Positions 9,966 through 22,478 of a stretch of DNA of 64,000 nt are shown in pieces. This stretch comes from Promicromonospora sukumoe 327MFSha3.1 (lineage in GTDB: Bacteria > Actinomycetota > Actinomycetes > Actinomycetales > Cellulomonadaceae), in contig NZ_ARQM01000010.1 in NCBI RefSeq assembly GCF_000385135.1, positions 1,798,001 to 1,862,000 on the forward strand. The letters are read 5' to 3'. Below the pieces are notes generated by a model that ran no database searches, was not told the DNA's origin, and saw nothing but the letters and a program-made list of their open reading frames with translations. The position numbers and the translations under genes are program-made. Within the stretch, counting starts at the first letter, position 1, and the number at the start of each line of letters is the position of its first letter.

Positions 9966-9994
9966 TTGAACCAAAACGTTAGGCCCTCTACCAT
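9966..9994 (+). promoter_or_regulatory. Sigma-70-type promoter of the kinase operon
   Basis: TTGAAC (9966-9971), a 17-bp spacer and TACCAT (9989-9994). Transcription would begin near 10001, some 55 nt before GTG 10056. Confidence 0.55.
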
Positions 9995-10055: not shown

Positions 10056-11834
10056 GTGCCAATCGCAGCGCTCAGCGGGGAGGACCCGCGCGAGGTCGGG
10101 CCGTACGTGATCGAGGGCCGGCTCGGGTCCGGCGGGATGGGCAGCGTCTACCTGGGCCGCCCGCGGACCGGGCGGCCCGTCGCGGTCAAGCTGATCCACC
10201 CGGCGCTGGCGGGCGACGCCGAGTTCCGCACCAGGTTCCGGCGCGAGGTCGCCGCGGCCCGCCGGGTGGGCGGTTTCTGGGCGGCGCAGGTGGTCGACGC
10301 CGACCCCGACGCCGAGCGGCCCTGGATGGCCACCGCCTACGTGGCGGGGCCCTCGCTCGAGGACGCCGTGGGGCAGGAGGGCGCGCTGCCCCTGTCCGTG
10401 GTCCGCACCTTGGGCGCCACCCTCGCCGAGGGGCTGGGCGCGATCCACGACCAGGGCCTGGTGCACCGCGACCTCAAGCCGTCCAACATCCTGCTGGCCG
10501 ACGACGGCCCCCGGGTCGTCGACTTCGGCATCGCCCAGGAGCGCGACGCGACGTCGCTGACGCACCAGGGCTCGATCGGCACGGCGCCCTACATGTCGCC
10601 GGAGCAGGTGCGGGGGCTGGACGTCACGGCGGCGTCCGACGTCTTCTCGCTGGGCTCCGTGCTCGTGTTCGCCTGCACGGGCCGCAGCCCGTTCGGGGGC
10701 GGCGCCGCCGAGGACGTCGCGCGGCGCGTCGTGCGGGACGAGCCCGACCTGGCCGGTGTGCCGTCGGGCCTGCGCGGGCTGGTCGAGGCCTGCCTCGCGA
10801 AGGAGCCGGCCGACCGGCCCGCGCCGTCCGACGTCGTGGACCGGCTCGCGAGCGCCACGGGCGGCGGCTGGGAGCTGCCGGCCGGCGTCGTCGCGATGAT
10901 CGCCGAGCGCGCAGCCGAGGTGGGCGGGGCCGAGGCGGGCGTGGTGTCGGTGTCGTCGCACGACCCCGCGGCGACGGAGCGGATCGAGACGCCGGGCACG
11001 AACCGGGTCCCGGTGGGCACGACACCGGCGGGCACGACTGCGGCCGACGCGGTACGGGTGGGCACGGTCGGGGTGAGCGCCGGCGCGCCCGGCTCCGAGG
11101 ACCGCCCCTGGTGGCGCACCCCGGCGGCACTGTGGACCGGGGTGGGCGTGGCGGCGGTCGTGGTCGGTGTCGCGGGCGCCCTGTCGGTCACCCGAGGGTT
11201 CGGCGGCGGGGCCGGGGGAGGCGCCGACCTGGTCCCGCCGCCGTCTTCGGTGGGCAACATGCAGCTCACCGTGCCGGACGAGACCCACGAGATCACGCTC
11301 GAGGTGACGGCCACCGGCAAGGACGCCGGGCGGATCCCGGTCGGGATGCGGTACGACGGGCGGCTCGGCCCGGCCGGCCTGGCGGACTCGTTCCGCAGTG
11401 CCGAGGACGTCATGGAGATGGACCTGGACAAGATGTACACCGAGATCGAGGTCCCGTGGAGCAAGACGATCACGGCTCAGGGGACCGTCGACGGTGCCAA
11501 CATCACCCTGTCCGCCGAGGCGGGCTGGCAGAACCGGGCGGAGATGACGCTCGGTGACAACGACATCGCCGTCTCCTGTCGGATCCTGATCGATGGCAAG
11601 CCGGTCGTCGAGGAGGCGGGCAAGGTCAACGTGGGCTGCATGCTGCTGCCCGACGAGCTGCAGGCGATGATGGACGAGGCGAAGAAGGACGCTGCCGACC
11701 AGAGCGCGGAGCAGCAGAAGAAGTTCGAGGAGCAGTACCAGGAGCAGCTGGACGAGCTCCCCGAGCCCGGTACGCCCGAGTACGACGAATGGCTGGAGAA
11801 GCTGCTCGGCCAGGCCACGGAAGGCAACGGCTGA
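10056..11834 (+). CDS. Transmembrane Ser/Thr protein kinase with MmpS-like extracellular domain
   Basis: Receptor-type Hanks kinase, 592 residues. Kinase domain about 15-275: Gly loop GRLGSGGMGSVY, VAVK lysine 45, HRDLKPSN, DFG at about 156-158, APE-like SPEQ. A juxtamembrane Thr/Pro/Gly linker and one membrane helix (about 360-380, VAAVVVGVAGALSV) follow. The outside part has PWSKTI, LSAEAG and SCRILIDGKPVVEE with two Cys, the signature of MmpS-like beta-sandwich proteins (my reading). The C-terminus is a Glu/Gln/Lys-rich helix (about 540-592). GTG 10056 is used because the promoter lies within the longer frame. First of three kinase-fold genes. Confidence 0.9.
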   Translation: MPIAALSGEDPREVGPYVIEGRLGSGGMGSVYLGRPRTGRPVAVKLIHPALAGDAEFRTRFRREVAAARRVGGFWAAQVVDADPDAERPWMATAYVAGPSLEDAVGQEGALPLSVVRTLGATLAEGLGAIHDQGLVHRDLKPSNILLADDGPRVVDFGIAQERDATSLTHQGSIGTAPYMSPEQVRGLDVTAASDVFSLGSVLVFACTGRSPFGGGAAEDVARRVVRDEPDLAGVPSGLRGLVEACLAKEPADRPAPSDVVDRLASATGGGWELPAGVVAMIAERAAEVGGAEAGVVSVSSHDPAATERIETPGTNRVPVGTTPAGTTAADAVRVGTVGVSAGAPGSEDRPWWRTPAALWTGVGVAAVVVGVAGALSVTRGFGGGAGGGADLVPPPSSVGNMQLTVPDETHEITLEVTATGKDAGRIPVGMRYDGRLGPAGLADSFRSAEDVMEMDLDKMYTEIEVPWSKTITAQGTVDGANITLSAEAGWQNRAEMTLGDNDIAVSCRILIDGKPVVEEAGKVNVGCMLLPDELQAMMDEAKKDAADQSAEQQKKFEEQYQEQLDELPEPGTPEYDEWLEKLLGQATEGNG

Positions 11835-11868: not shown

Positions 11869-13392
<1,524 letters not shown>

Positions 13393-13435
13393 CCGCGGCC
13401 GTCACGAACGGCGCACCACCGAGAGGACACCGAGC

Positions 13436-14794
13436 ATGGACACACCGGGCACGGAGACACCGGGCATCGAGCTGGAACCCCTGGGGGAACGTGACCCCCG
13501 GGAGCTGGGTCCCTACCACCTGCGCGGCCGCCTCCGGGTCGGCCGCGCGGGCATCACCTACCTCGGCCGTTCGCCTGACGGGCTGTTCGCCGAGGTGACC
13601 GTGGTCAGCGAGCAGATCGCCTGGGACCCCGAGGTGCTCGCCCTCCTGTCCGACGGCACCGACGCCGCCCGCCGGCTCCGCGCCCCGCACCTGCAGCGGG
13701 TCCGCGCCGCCGACCTGGGCGAGCGCACGCCCTGGACCGCCGCCGACTTCCTGCCCGGACCGTCGCTGCGCGACGCCGTCGAGGCCTACGGGCCGCTGCC
13801 GCCCGCCGCCGTCCGGAGCCTGGCCACGGCGCTCGCGGACGCCCTCGACGCCGTCCACGGTGCCGGGCACGTGCACCGCGGGCTCGACCCGTCCACCGTG
13901 GTCCTCACCGCCGACGGCGCCGTCGTGACCGGGCTGGGCGTGGCCCGCGCACTGGAGGCGGCCACGGTGACGCTCCCGCGCCTGGTGCCGGACGCCGTGG
14001 CGTATCTGCCGCCCGAGGTGGCGCGCGGCCTGGAGGCCGGGTCGCCCGCCGACGTCTTCGGCCTGGGCGCCGTGCTGACCTACGCCGCGACGGGGCACGG
14101 GCCGTTCGGGTCCGGGGCCTCGGCCGAGCTGGCGCGCCGGATGCGGGACGACGAGCCCGACCTCGCCGGCCTGCCCGACGACCTGGTCGAGGTCGTCACG
14201 GCCTGCGTCCGGGCCGACCCGGGCCGACGGCCCACGCTGGCGGCGGTGCGCCGTCGGCTGGCGGCCGGGCCGGTCGGCTCGTGGGTGCTCCCGGACGGTC
14301 TGACGGGCGCGTTCGCCCAGTGGGCGGTGCTGGGCAGGGGCCGGTCGGCGCCGCTGGCGCCCGCGATCCCCGCGGAGCCGACGGCGCCGCTGGCTCCCCG
14401 GGGCGGGCCGGCGGTCGCTGCCGGAACGGGTTCCGGTGCCAGGGCGGGGGCGACCCGGAAGCTGGACGTCGCGTTCGACGAGCCCGGTGCTGGCGGTGTC
14501 GGCGACACCGAGAACGTGGGCGTGGCGCCCACGGCACCGGTCGGTGCCCCGACGGCCGGCAGCGCGACGGCCGGCACCGTGCCGTCCGGCACACCCACCG
14601 GCTCCGGCCCCGATGCCCCCGCCGTCCCGCCGCAGCCGGTCTCGATCCTGCCCCGCACGGCCGGCGACAACCGCGGCACCGGCTCGGGCCGGGGCGCCGG
14701 CGAGGGTGAGTCGCGCGTGTCGCCGCTGCTCCTGGTCGCCGTCGGCGTCGCGGTGGCCGCGCTCGTGTTCGCGGCGGTCACCCTCTGGCTCTAG
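13436..14794 (+). CDS. Membrane-anchored pseudokinase
   Basis: Kinase-fold protein of 452 residues that lacks every catalytic signature. The Gly loop is GRLRVGRAGITYLG, the VAVK lysine position reads AEVT (52-55), HRDLKPSN is HRGLDPST (147-154, catalytic Asp replaced by Gly), and DFG is TGLG (165-168). The rest of the fold, including PEVARGLEAGSPADVFGLGA, aligns well with the two kinases before it. A long Ala/Pro/Gly/Thr linker leads to a single C-terminal helix (LLLVAVGVAVAALVFAAVTL) with no outer domain. By analogy with other pseudokinases it may be a scaffold or regulator of the two kinases; that is inference. Confidence 0.88.
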   Translation: MDTPGTETPGIELEPLGERDPRELGPYHLRGRLRVGRAGITYLGRSPDGLFAEVTVVSEQIAWDPEVLALLSDGTDAARRLRAPHLQRVRAADLGERTPWTAADFLPGPSLRDAVEAYGPLPPAAVRSLATALADALDAVHGAGHVHRGLDPSTVVLTADGAVVTGLGVARALEAATVTLPRLVPDAVAYLPPEVARGLEAGSPADVFGLGAVLTYAATGHGPFGSGASAELARRMRDDEPDLAGLPDDLVEVVTACVRADPGRRPTLAAVRRRLAAGPVGSWVLPDGLTGAFAQWAVLGRGRSAPLAPAIPAEPTAPLAPRGGPAVAAGTGSGARAGATRKLDVAFDEPGAGGVGDTENVGVAPTAPVGAPTAGSATAGTVPSGTPTGSGPDAPAVPPQPVSILPRTAGDNRGTGSGRGAGEGESRVSPLLLVAVGVAVAALVFAAVTLWL

Positions 14795-15882
14795 GGCCGT
14801 CCGTCGCCGGCCCGGCCGAGGCGGGCGAGCGCCGCGAGCGGGTACGGCGTCGTCCGGCTCTCCCGCTGGAAGCGGCGGTGGAAGTCGCCGACCACCGCGG
14901 CGACCGGCGCGTCCCGGAGCAGCAGCTCCGCGACGGCCGCCGGGACGCCCGCCGGGGCCACCCCCTCGGCGCAGGCCCGCACGAACGCCCGGCGTTCGTC
15001 GGGCCCGAACCCGTGCACCGCGACGGCCAGCCAGTTCACCAGGTACGCCGCGACGTAGTCCCGGTCGTAGCCCTCGTGCTCGGCGAGGAAGACGGCCTCC
15101 TCCGGCGTGAGGTCGAAGCCGGAGGAGACCGCGAGGCCGTAGTCGGCGAAGTACAGCCGCTCGCCGTCCGTCAGGATGTTCTGGAAGTGGACGTCGAGGT
15201 GCAGCAGCCCGCGCGCGTTCATGAACGCGACGCCGGCCGCGAGCTCGGCGTCCACCATCGCGCAGGCCCGCTCGGCGGCTTCGTCACCGGCCCGGAGCTG
15301 CTCGTCCAGCCAGGCGTGCAGGGTCTGCGGCACGTACTCAAGGAACAGCACGATGCTCGCCGAGGACTGTTCCAGGGCCTCGATCCGGGCCCGGATCTGC
15401 GGCCCGCCGCCCCAGTACGCGACGGCCCGCTCGACGTCGGCCAGCTCCTCGGGGAGCGGGTGGCCGGCGTCGGGCAGCACCCGCCAGTGGTACATCAGGG
15501 GGAAGCCCTCGTGCTCGCCCGCGAGCACCCAGCCCGTCGTCAGGGTGTGCGCGGCCAGCTCCCGCCAGGCCCCGAACCCCGGGCCGCCGATGGTGCCGAC
15601 GCCGAAGTGACAGAAGGCCGGCAGGTCGAACAGGTTGGCCGTGGAGCCGACGTGCTCCGGCCGCCGCTCGAGGTCGGTCAGGCGCACCTGCTTGACGAAG
15701 ACCGGGGTGCCCTCGACGTCCAGCCGCCGGGTCGCCCCGCCGATGCCGGAACCGATCGGGGCGGCGGCGTCCAGGAGCTCGCGCAGCGCGTCGTCGCCGG
15801 TCCGCGAGAGGGTCGCCGAGACGGTGTCGTGGGCGGCGAGGCGTGGGGCGCGGGACTTGGCGGCGGACGGGTCGGAGGCCAC
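14791..15882 (-). CDS. Protein kinase / aminoglycoside-phosphotransferase-like protein
   Basis: 363 residues, cytoplasmic. Shows a kinase-type lysine (TPVFVKQVRLTDLE), a Brenner-type catalytic loop HLDVHFQNIL and a metal-binding DYG (LYFADYGLAV), the pattern of APH/choline kinase-like or bacterial Ser/Thr kinase-related proteins. Its stop codon shares the tetranucleotide CTAG with the stop of the pseudokinase on the other strand, so the two genes meet with no spacer. The TetR gene lies 6 bp upstream in the same direction, so it may be co-transcribed with it. Substrate unknown; resistance or a self-regulatory kinase are both possible. Confidence 0.75.
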   Translation of the reverse strand: MASDPSAAKSRAPRLAAHDTVSATLSRTGDDALRELLDAAAPIGSGIGGATRRLDVEGTPVFVKQVRLTDLERRPEHVGSTANLFDLPAFCHFGVGTIGGPGFGAWRELAAHTLTTGWVLAGEHEGFPLMYHWRVLPDAGHPLPEELADVERAVAYWGGGPQIRARIEALEQSSASIVLFLEYVPQTLHAWLDEQLRAGDEAAERACAMVDAELAAGVAFMNARGLLHLDVHFQNILTDGERLYFADYGLAVSSGFDLTPEEAVFLAEHEGYDRDYVAAYLVNWLAVAVHGFGPDERRAFVRACAEGVAPAGVPAAVAELLLRDAPVAAVVGDFHRRFQRESRTTPYPLAALARLGRAGDGRP

Positions 15883-19274: not shown

Positions 19275-22200
19275 TCAGCGCGAGACCTGCTGGACGTTGA
19301 CGGCGCCGACGAACCCGGCGAGGTTCGTCGTGCCGTGGGTGACGTTCCGGTTGCCGTTGAAGAGCTGCAGCGTGCCGCCCGTGGTCGAGATCGTGATCGT
19401 GTTGGAGACGTAGCCGTCCTGGTTCGACAGGGTCGACGTCGTCGACCTGATCCGCGAGCCCGCGACCTCGTTGCCGCCGAGCACCAGGTAGGCCGAGACG
19501 ATCTCGGTGTAGGCGTTCAGGAGGTCGCCGACGGCGTCGGCCGACCAGGAGTAGGTGACGACGTACGTCCCCGCCGGCAGGGTGATCCCGCCGTTGTTGA
19601 GCGCCACCCCGGTGCCGTAGGTGGTGCCCGCCGTGGTCAGGGGGATCAGGGTGTTCGCGTTCTGTGCTGCCGTCGAGGTCGTGTAGAAGTATCCGCCGTT
19701 CGCGGGAGCCGCGGCGCCCTGCGCGCCCTGGGGTCCGGCCGCGCCCTGCGGGCCCGCCGCCCCTTGCGGTCCGACGGCGCCCTGCGGGCCGGCCGGCCCC
19801 TGCGCGCCGGCGGTACCGGCTGCGCCCTGGGCGCCCGCGGTGCCCTGCGCTCCGGTCGTGCCCTGTGCGCCGGTCGCACCCTGGGAACCCGTCGCGCCCT
19901 GCACGCCCTGGGGCCCTTGCGGCCCGGCGGGACCCTGCGGGCCCTGGGGGCCGGTGAGGCCCTGTGGGCCAGTGGGGCCTTGGGCGCCGGCGGTGCCGTT
20001 GGCGCCCTGGGGGCCGGTGGGGCCCTGTGCACCGGTGGGGCCCTGTGCACCGGTGGCGCCTTGGGCTCCGGTGGTGCCCTGTGAACCCGTCGCGCCCTGC
20101 GGGCCGGCTGCTCCCTGGTTTCCCTGCGCTCCGGTGGCGCCCTGGGGTCCTGTTGCGCCGGGGGTTCCTTGGGGTCCGGTTGTGCCGGGGGTTCCTTGGG
20201 CGCCGGTCGCGCCCTGTGCACCGGCTGCGCCCTGCGGTCCTGCGAGCCCCTGAGGGCCGGCAGGCCCTTGGCTGCCGGTAGCGCCCTGTGCACCCGTGCC
20301 GCCTTGTGCGCCCTGGGGGCCCGTGGGCCCCTGGGGGCCGTCGGCTCCGTCTGTTCCGTCGGCGCCGTCGGCACCCTGCGGTCCTGTCGCGCCGTCGGCG
20401 CCCTGAGAGCCGGTCGCTCCCTGTGGGCCAGTCGCGCCGTCCGAACCCTGCGCGCCGTCGGCTCCTTGAGGACCCTGCGCTCCGTCGGTGCCGTCGGTAC
20501 CGGCAGCGCCCTGGGGTCCGGCGGGGCCTTGTGCGCCCGCTGCGCCCTGCGCTCCGTCGGTGCCATCCGCGCCCTGAGGTCCGGCGGGCCCCTGCGGTCC
20601 GTCAGACCCCTGCGCGCCGGTTGCTCCTTGGGCACCGGCTGCTCCCTGTGCGCCCTGCGCGCCCTGAGGTCCGGCAGGTCCCTGGGGGCCGTCGGCGCCG
20701 TCGGTCCCGTCGGTGCCGTCTGCGCCCTGGGCACCGTCCGCGCCCTGCGGTCCGCCTGGTCCTTGGGGGCCGTCGGCACCCTGGGCACCGGTGGATCCTT
20801 GGGCTCCGTCGGCACCCTGCGGTCCGGTGGCGCCGTCTGCTCCGTCGGATCCCTGGGCGCCAGTTGCGCCTTGTGCGCCCATGTCGCCCTGGGCACCTTG
20901 GGGGCCGTCCGGTCCCTGTGGGCCGTCGGCCCCATCCGTCCCGTCAGCTCCATCGGAACCCTGCGGTCCGGCGGGTCCCTGAGGCCCGTCAGATCCCTGA
21001 GCGCCGGTTGCTCCTTGGGCACCGGTTGCACCCTGAGCGCCCTGGGAGCCGTCGGCTCCGTTCGCGCCCTGCGGGCCTGTCGCGCCGTCGGCACCCTGAG
21101 CACCAGTTGCGCCCTGCGCACCTGTGTCGCCTTGTGCACCTTGGGGGCCAGTAGGCCCCTGTGGGCCGTCGGCCCCATTCGCCCCGTCGGCTCCGTCAGC
21201 GCCCTGGGCGCCGGTCGCACCCTGCGGGCCTTCGGCTCCCGCCGCGCCGTCCGCGCCCTGAGCACCCTGCGCGCCGGCCTGACCCTCCGGGCCGGTGTCG
21301 CCCTGCGGGCCTTGCGGTCCAGCCGGGCCCTGGACGCCTCCGGGTCCGGCCGCGCCGTCAGCGCCCTGGGGTCCGGTGGGGCCTTGGGGTCCGTCAGCAC
21401 CTTGAGCGCCGACAGCGCCCTGGGCTCCTTGCGCGCCATCGGCGCCTCGTGCACCGTCAGCGCCCTGAGGTCCAGCAGGTCCCTGCGGTCCGTTGGCACC
21501 GGTCGCCCCCTGAGCACCGTCGGCACCTGTCGCGCCCTGCGCTCCGTCGGCACCCTGAGCGCCATCCGCTCCGTCGGCTCCTTGGGCGCCCTGCGCGCCG
21601 TCTGATCCGTCCGTGCCCGCGGCGCCCTGCGGTCCGGTGGGGCCCTGCGGGCCCTCGGCTCCTTGCGCGCCCTGGGCGCCGTCCGATCCGTCCGCGCCCT
21701 GCGCGCCGTCGGCTCCGTCGGCGCCGTCCGTTCCCGCGGCGCCCTGCGGTCCATCGGCACCGTCGGATCCGTCGGCACCATCTGCGCCCTGCGCACCTGT
21801 CGCGCCCTGCGCTCCTTCAGCACCGTCGGCTCCTTGCGGGCCGGTTGCACCCTGCGGGCCGGCGGCGCCGTCGGCCCCGTCCTCGCCGTCAGCGCCCTGC
21901 GCCCCGTCGGCACCTTGCGGCCCCGTCGCCCCCGGTGCTCCCTCGGCGCCCTGGGGTCCGTCGGCGCCCTGAGCGCCGGTCGCGCCGTCGGCTCCCTGCG
22001 CGCCTTGCGGTCCGATCACACCCTGCGGTCCCGCAGGACCTTGCGCCCCGTCGGCCCCGTCCTCGCCGTCTGCCCCGTCCGCGCCATCGATCCCGTCGGC
22101 ACCCCGTTCGCCCTGCGCCCCAGCCTCACCCTGGGGCCCGACGCCGCCGTCAGCCCCCTGGGGCCCCACCGACCCATCCGCCCCGGCCTCACCCTGCTCG

Positions 22201-22478
22201 CCAGGAGGCCCGGCCGACCCGCTCGGCCCCATGGCCCCCTGCGCACCCGTGGCGCCCTGCGGCCCGACCGGTCCGGTGGCGCCCGTCTCACCCGGCTCGC
22301 CCGTACCGGCGTCGGCCTCGCCGAAGACCGGGCCCCGCAGGCCGGGCGGTTGCTGCCCCTCCCACGGGTGGTCCGGCCCCGTCGCCGCATCGGCGGCGAC
22401 ACGGTCGCCGGCCAGGAACAGGACCGCCGTCGCACCCACGGTCAGGGTGGTTCGCCCGGCGCGTCTGTACCAGGTCAA
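19275..22478 (-). CDS. Long collagen-like surface protein with C-terminal globular head
   Basis: 1067 residues. N-terminus has a hydrophobic signal/anchor ([15 protein letters not shown]). From about residue 60 to 920 it is an unbroken run of Gly-X-Y triplets ([15 protein letters not shown] are most common), about 285 triplets. The last about 140 residues ([19 protein letters not shown] and onward, [37 protein letters not shown]) form a beta-rich head like the C1q/TNF-like trimer heads of BclA-type bacterial collagens. Start is TTG 22478 with GGAGAG upstream, overlapping the stop of the preceding gene (TTGA). No LPxTG motif. Probably an exported trimeric fibre; function unknown. Confidence 0.88.
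19713..22301 (-). repeat. Collagen Gly-X-Y coding repeat
   Basis: About 2.6 kb of degenerate 9-bp units coding for Gly-X-Y. The repeat keeps several other frames open on both strands, which creates large false ORFs here. Expected to be prone to slippage and recombination. Confidence 0.92.

Follow-up and report, generated by a model that had tools for sequence, protein, structure and literature searches.

A membrane-tethered pseudokinase encoded behind two receptor-type Ser/Thr kinases in Promicromonospora sukumoe

The open reading frame at positions 13436-14794 (+) of the window, the 64,000-nucleotide stretch of the 6.25 Mb Promicromonospora sukumoe 327MFSha3.1 genome analysed here, encodes a protein of 452 residues, K3. 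Its reading frame was verified, and sequence profile, alignment, substitution rates and predicted fold identify K3 as a real, selected and genus-restricted pseudokinase tethered to the membrane. Its operon context is unusual, yet the protein falls within a known kind. Directly upstream lie the genes of two active-looking receptor Ser/Thr kinases, K1 and K2, and it is probable that K3 acts on this pair in some way.

Catalytic residues, predicted fold and topology

None of the five catalytic residues is present in K3. The β3 motif VAVK reads AEVT (13589-13600; all K3 features lie on the + strand), with Ala replaced by Glu53 and Lys by Thr55; the αC Glu is replaced by Gly74 (13655-13657), HRD by HRG (13874-13882) and the catalytic-loop Asn by Thr, and the DFG site reads TGLG (13928-13939), with Gly in place of Asp. 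All five residues are likewise absent from the other full K3 ortholog, that of P. iranensis, in which HRD has become HRA, the catalytic Asn Ala and the DFG site TGVG. In a kinase alignment of 59 rows, these two are the only Promicromonosporaceae sequences lacking all five. The initial annotation had noted the loss of the VAVK lysine and of the HRD and DFG aspartates, which the alignment confirms, adding the αC Glu and the catalytic Asn. It had also listed the Gly loop as lost, and here it is right in part: the loop, RVGRAGIT (13535-13558), is degraded, with Arg37 for the middle Gly in all three K3 orthologs, but G36 and G39 remain. A sequencing error or single-strain fluke was ruled out, since P. 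iranensis carries all of the losses and the third, partial ortholog, from genome G004, those of the N-lobe.

In active kinases, the Ala of VAVK contacts adenine; Glu53 occupies this C-spine position in all three orthologs. The kinase domain of the window K3 contains no lysine, the sole one in the protein being K342, which excludes a relocated lysine of the WNK type. The replacements of the HRD Asp (Gly or Ala) and of the catalytic Asn (Thr or Ala) differ between the orthologs, so there is no constraint to restore them. From these substitutions, K3 is almost certainly inactive as a kinase. Nor would it be expected to bind ATP, judging from the missing lysine, the Glu at the adenine-contacting position and the lack of a Mg ligand. 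Since some pseudokinase folds carry out other chemistry (PMC12599244), K3 might still be an enzyme of a non-canonical sort, as are SelO and SidJ. We regard this as highly improbable for a kinase domain that is devoid of lysine, has no Asp at either DFG or HRD and does not conserve what replaces the HRD Asp and the catalytic Asn.

The kinase fold itself is retained, as had been proposed. K3 matches the Pfam Pkinase profile (PF00069) with 51.6 bits against a cutoff of 31.7, and an AlphaFold2 model built with 21 related sequences gives a confident kinase fold for residues ~11-280, with values mostly above 90. The best solved matches to the model are the kinase domains of Mycobacterium tuberculosis PknA and PknB and Staphylococcus aureus Stk1 (Z 27.5-29), with PknA superimposing at Z 29 and 2.4 Å over 260 residues. 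The solved structure of MviN is not among the fold matches listed, which says nothing about the fold. The pseudo-activation segment (13949-14023) is of full length, and 24 of its 25 residues are identical in P. iranensis.

Following the kinase-like domain, a conserved juxta-domain motif, QWAVLGRGRSAPLAPA(I/L)PAEPTAPL (14318-14392), leads into a linker of 125 residues (303-427) that is disordered in the model and poorly conserved apart from the motif T(R/K)KLDxAFD (14453-14479). The chain ends in a membrane helix, a single helix in the model at residues 430-451 (14723-14788), with a hydropathy maximum of 2.78 and no outer domain beyond it, in agreement with the initial annotation. By analogy with K1 and K2, K3 most likely presents a tethered domain to the cytoplasm and lacks a sensor.

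Operon neighbours, distribution and selection

K1 (10056-11834, +) and K2 (11869-13392, +) are AfsK-type receptor Ser/Thr kinases, active-looking by their motifs and their Pkinase matches (132 and 138 bits); every catalytic motif is present in the kinase alignment. K1 has a transmembrane segment and a C-terminal outer domain. A start for K1 at 9966 was ruled out because the upstream stretch contains stop codons in relatives, and the true start lies at ~10056. All three genes are co-oriented, K2 following K1 after 34 bp and K3 following K2 after 43 bp (3 bp in P. iranensis). GAGAGG at 13421-13426 (+), read from the sequence, is a candidate ribosome-binding site for K3. The claimed arrangement behind two active-looking receptor kinases is upheld, and the three genes presumably form a co-transcribed operon.

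Several features of the surroundings were noted in passing. The outer domain of K2 (12904-13389) and those of the tandem kinases of a sister species, G007, match the mycobacterial MmpS-type family PF05423 weakly (E 0.0012 for K2), and the P. iranensis ortholog of K2 scores over the cutoff. The second kinase of the G007 pair (L049:6962-8509, −) has HRN for HRD but no change at the Lys, Glu, Asn or DFG; this single-residue loss is independent. Tail to tail with K3, and overlapping its stop codon, lies PK4 (14791-15882, −), encoding an atypical kinase-like protein that does not reach the cutoff of Pfam. PK4 is found in most of the genus at 69-91% identity and in varying positions; its presence in 11 of 13 genus genomes, and its distance of ~100 kb from K3 in P. 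iranensis, rule out that the two genes arrived together. Farther along, 19275-22478 (−) encodes a collagen-like protein of 1067 residues with long Gly-X-Y repeats and a globular C-terminal part.

The gene order HAD-K1-K2-K3 of the window recurs in P. iranensis, where K3 is 72% identical. In G004, the N-terminal part of K3 (87-89% identity) can be followed to residue 82, where it meets a scaffold gap of 100 N; this broken assembly is consistent with the same order, and a K1-gap-PK4 joint on another of its contigs is probably a scaffolding artefact. K3 is present in three of the 13 genus genomes, all within the four that have both K1 and K2. No ortholog-level K3 was found in 208 other genomes of the family or in 396 drawn from the order, and a pattern-based scan of 84,980 species, which detects close relatives only, returned one ortholog, that of P. 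iranensis. The distribution of K3 is genus-restricted and patchy.

The relative G011 keeps K1 (72% identity) and K2 (73-74%), but neither K3 nor a remnant of it was found at this K1-K2 locus; K2 is followed at once by a TetR gene, and no space remains for a relic. The initial annotation had tied its reading to the presence of K3 in relatives that keep both kinases, which holds, with synteny, for P. iranensis and fails for G011. K3 is consequently accessory to the kinase pair. G011 and P. iranensis are placed differently by the rpoB and K2 trees, which gives no preference to a gain of K3 over its loss in G011. A clade of K1, K2 and K3 is neither supported nor rejected by the AU test, with p values of 0.14 and, with pseudokinases included, 0.068.

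Selection was assessed between the window and P. iranensis using Nei-Gojobori counts with 300 bootstraps. Omega is 0.29 (0.20-0.42) for the K3 kinase domain and 0.36 for the whole gene, falling to 0.03 in the activation loop and rising to 0.49 in the linker; the neighbouring genes give 0.31 (HAD), 0.36 (K1) and 0.32 (K2). Purifying selection on K3 is clear, bearing out the earlier claim. Many overlapping open frames are listed in the window, and since open frames mean little at this GC content, it is the excess of synonymous change, not the open frame, that shows coding constraint. These values bear on the idea that K3 is a decaying, functionless duplicate, which would suit its patchy distribution, its absence from G011 and a rate of evolution faster than that of the K2 kinase domain. 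We consider decay very unlikely, because the kinase-domain omega is similar to that of HAD, the frame is intact, the activation segment is 96% identical across species and the motif losses are older than the P. iranensis split.

The constraint on K3 also appears to be differently distributed. Between orthologs, the ATP-binding and catalytic elements are 68% identical in K3 vs 94% in K2 and 87% in K1, whereas the activation segment, αD, αG and αH-I taken together are 85% identical in K3 vs 79% in K2 and 81% in K1. The interaction (z of -3.8 vs K2 and -2.7 vs K1), for a partition drawn up once the data had been seen and a single species pair, is suggestive of constraint now lying less on the catalytic elements and more on the activation segment and the hinge/αD region.

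Possible roles of K3 beside K1 and K2

We propose that K3 is a paralog of the AfsK-type receptor kinases, dead as a catalyst and anchored in the membrane by its C terminus, and that it would be co-expressed with the active K1 and K2 and act on both without enzymatic activity. At the membrane, its kinase-like domain may dock on the kinase domains of K1 and K2, using the side formed by the activation segment, αD and αG. Once docked, K3 would be a non-productive partner or a decoy substrate and would set the threshold for trans-autophosphorylation of K1 and K2. A role as non-catalytic docking partner or decoy is the best explanation overall, though our confidence in it stops just short of the even mark; docking by the activation-segment side in particular is put forward tentatively, at somewhat less than an even chance. 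A physical interaction of K3 with K1 and K2 is presumed here, as is the direction of its effect, inhibitory or activating. The occurrence of K3 only where K1 and K2 occur supports a partner of these kinases, and the persistence of K1 and K2 without K3 in G011 counts against it, as it shows that the pair can do without K3.

The main rival reading places the function in the linker, of which T316 and T340 would be phosphorylated and recruit FHA proteins. Both residues are conserved within a linker that is otherwise poorly so, T316 in TAPL and T340 in TRKL or TKKL, each with Leu at +3; the linker is long and disordered, the genome contains eight FHA matches, and the recruitment of FhaA by the MviN pseudokinase provides a precedent (PMC12599244). 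However, no FHA gene is present at the K3 locus and none of the eight matches is linked to K3, most Thr residues of the linker are unconserved, and the strongest constraint lies in the kinase-like domain. Such a phospho-scaffold is, in our estimation, a rather unlikely account of K3. It is unlikely, too, that K3 serves mainly as a structural subunit of an oligomer, joining K1 and K2 at the membrane with no part in catalysis: the tail anchor without a sensor domain, the retained fold and the operon position all suit such a subunit, but the activation segment as the most conserved part of the protein would then go unexplained.

The likely partners are encoded by the two genes next door, and relatives offer a natural comparison with K3 (P. 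iranensis) and without it (G011), so that direct control of kinases by bacterial pseudokinases becomes a small, testable question.

Relationship to described kinases and pseudokinases

The AfsK model NF053615 is the best-scoring NCBIfam family for K1, K2 and K3, and the identity between K3 and active AfsK-type members reaches 45%. All three proteins nevertheless fall far below the equivalog cutoff (154 bits for K3 vs 1300), the outer domains of K1 and K2 lack PQQ-type repeats, and K3 has neither catalysis nor a sensor domain. Seven families of bacterial pseudokinases were described in a 2025 review, and they are largely unstudied by experiment (PMC12599244). The literature searched yielded no AfsK-linked or operon-partner bacterial pseudokinase like K3.

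The nearest candidate among the described families is ActPs1, which is actinobacterial and, as in K3, has all three canonical motifs substituted (PMC12599244). Its members are marked by an αG deletion (~60% of them) or a C-terminal PQQ domain (many) (PMC12599244), whereas K3 keeps the αG region (14096-14176), has no PQQ match and carries a tail anchor. As neither feature is universal in ActPs1, the mismatch lowers the case for membership without excluding it. In one tree (SH-aLRT 95), K3 clusters with tandem pseudokinases of Streptomyces that resemble ActPs1, a join marked as long-branch; once these sequences are omitted, K3 takes another position. A bolder reading, which we entertain with more doubt than conviction, is that K3 stands at the origin of a separate pseudokinase family, having arisen by duplication of an AfsK-type gene inside a receptor-kinase operon, lost its sensor domain and turned into an allosteric or decoy subunit that is tethered to the membrane and dedicated to K1 and K2. 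K3 and K1/K2 would then be a bacterial counterpart of the kinase-pseudokinase receptor pairs of eukaryotes.

K3 departs from the hallmarks of three further families. ActPs2 is also actinobacterial and often has a C-terminal membrane segment, but it shows β3 Lys to Arg, HRN, a deleted DFG and long insertions (PMC12599244); K3 has Thr55, HRG or HRA, no insertion and no DFG deletion. In the GLW family, GLW replaces HRD, in contrast to the HRG or HRA of K3. ActPs3, the MviN family, shares with K3 complete motif loss, a C-terminal membrane segment and possible phosphorylation of Thr in the tail; it differs in a deletion of the activation loop, which in K3 aligns at full length with K2, and in its association with murJ (PMC12599244). 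In this genome, murJ and its pseudokinase neighbour are on contig C14 and K3 is on C10.

The resemblance to mycobacterial MviN drawn by the initial annotation therefore survives as an analogy only, and K3 being an MviN-type pseudokinase is ruled out: the genome has its own, a separate and likewise stand-alone gene (L130:1777-3720, −) that encodes a 647-residue membrane protein, unfused to MurJ, between murJ and a thioredoxin-reductase-like gene. The label MviN-type rests here on murJ adjacency, a weak kinase match and missing motifs. A BLAST comparison of this protein with K3 gave no significant similarity.

The SCO4775-4779 cluster of Streptomyces coelicolor is another case of clustered Ser/Thr kinase genes, in which deletion of the cluster or extra copies of it disturb the same process; it differs in consisting of five separately transcribed kinases, and the word pseudokinase is absent from that report (PMC4416010).

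The four ActPs1-like Streptomyces pseudokinases, whose place in ActPs1 is presumptive, lack the αG region, and one of them is followed directly by a PQQ-bearing kinase. In pseudokinases at L037:6013-6900 and L041:5092-5988 (Streptomyces) and at L131 and L141 (G748), HRD is replaced by HAG(L/I) or YAGI and αG is deleted. Those at L037 and L041 each immediately precede an active AfsK-type kinase in the same frame. The tandem pairing of a dead with a live kinase gene may recur in Actinomycetota.
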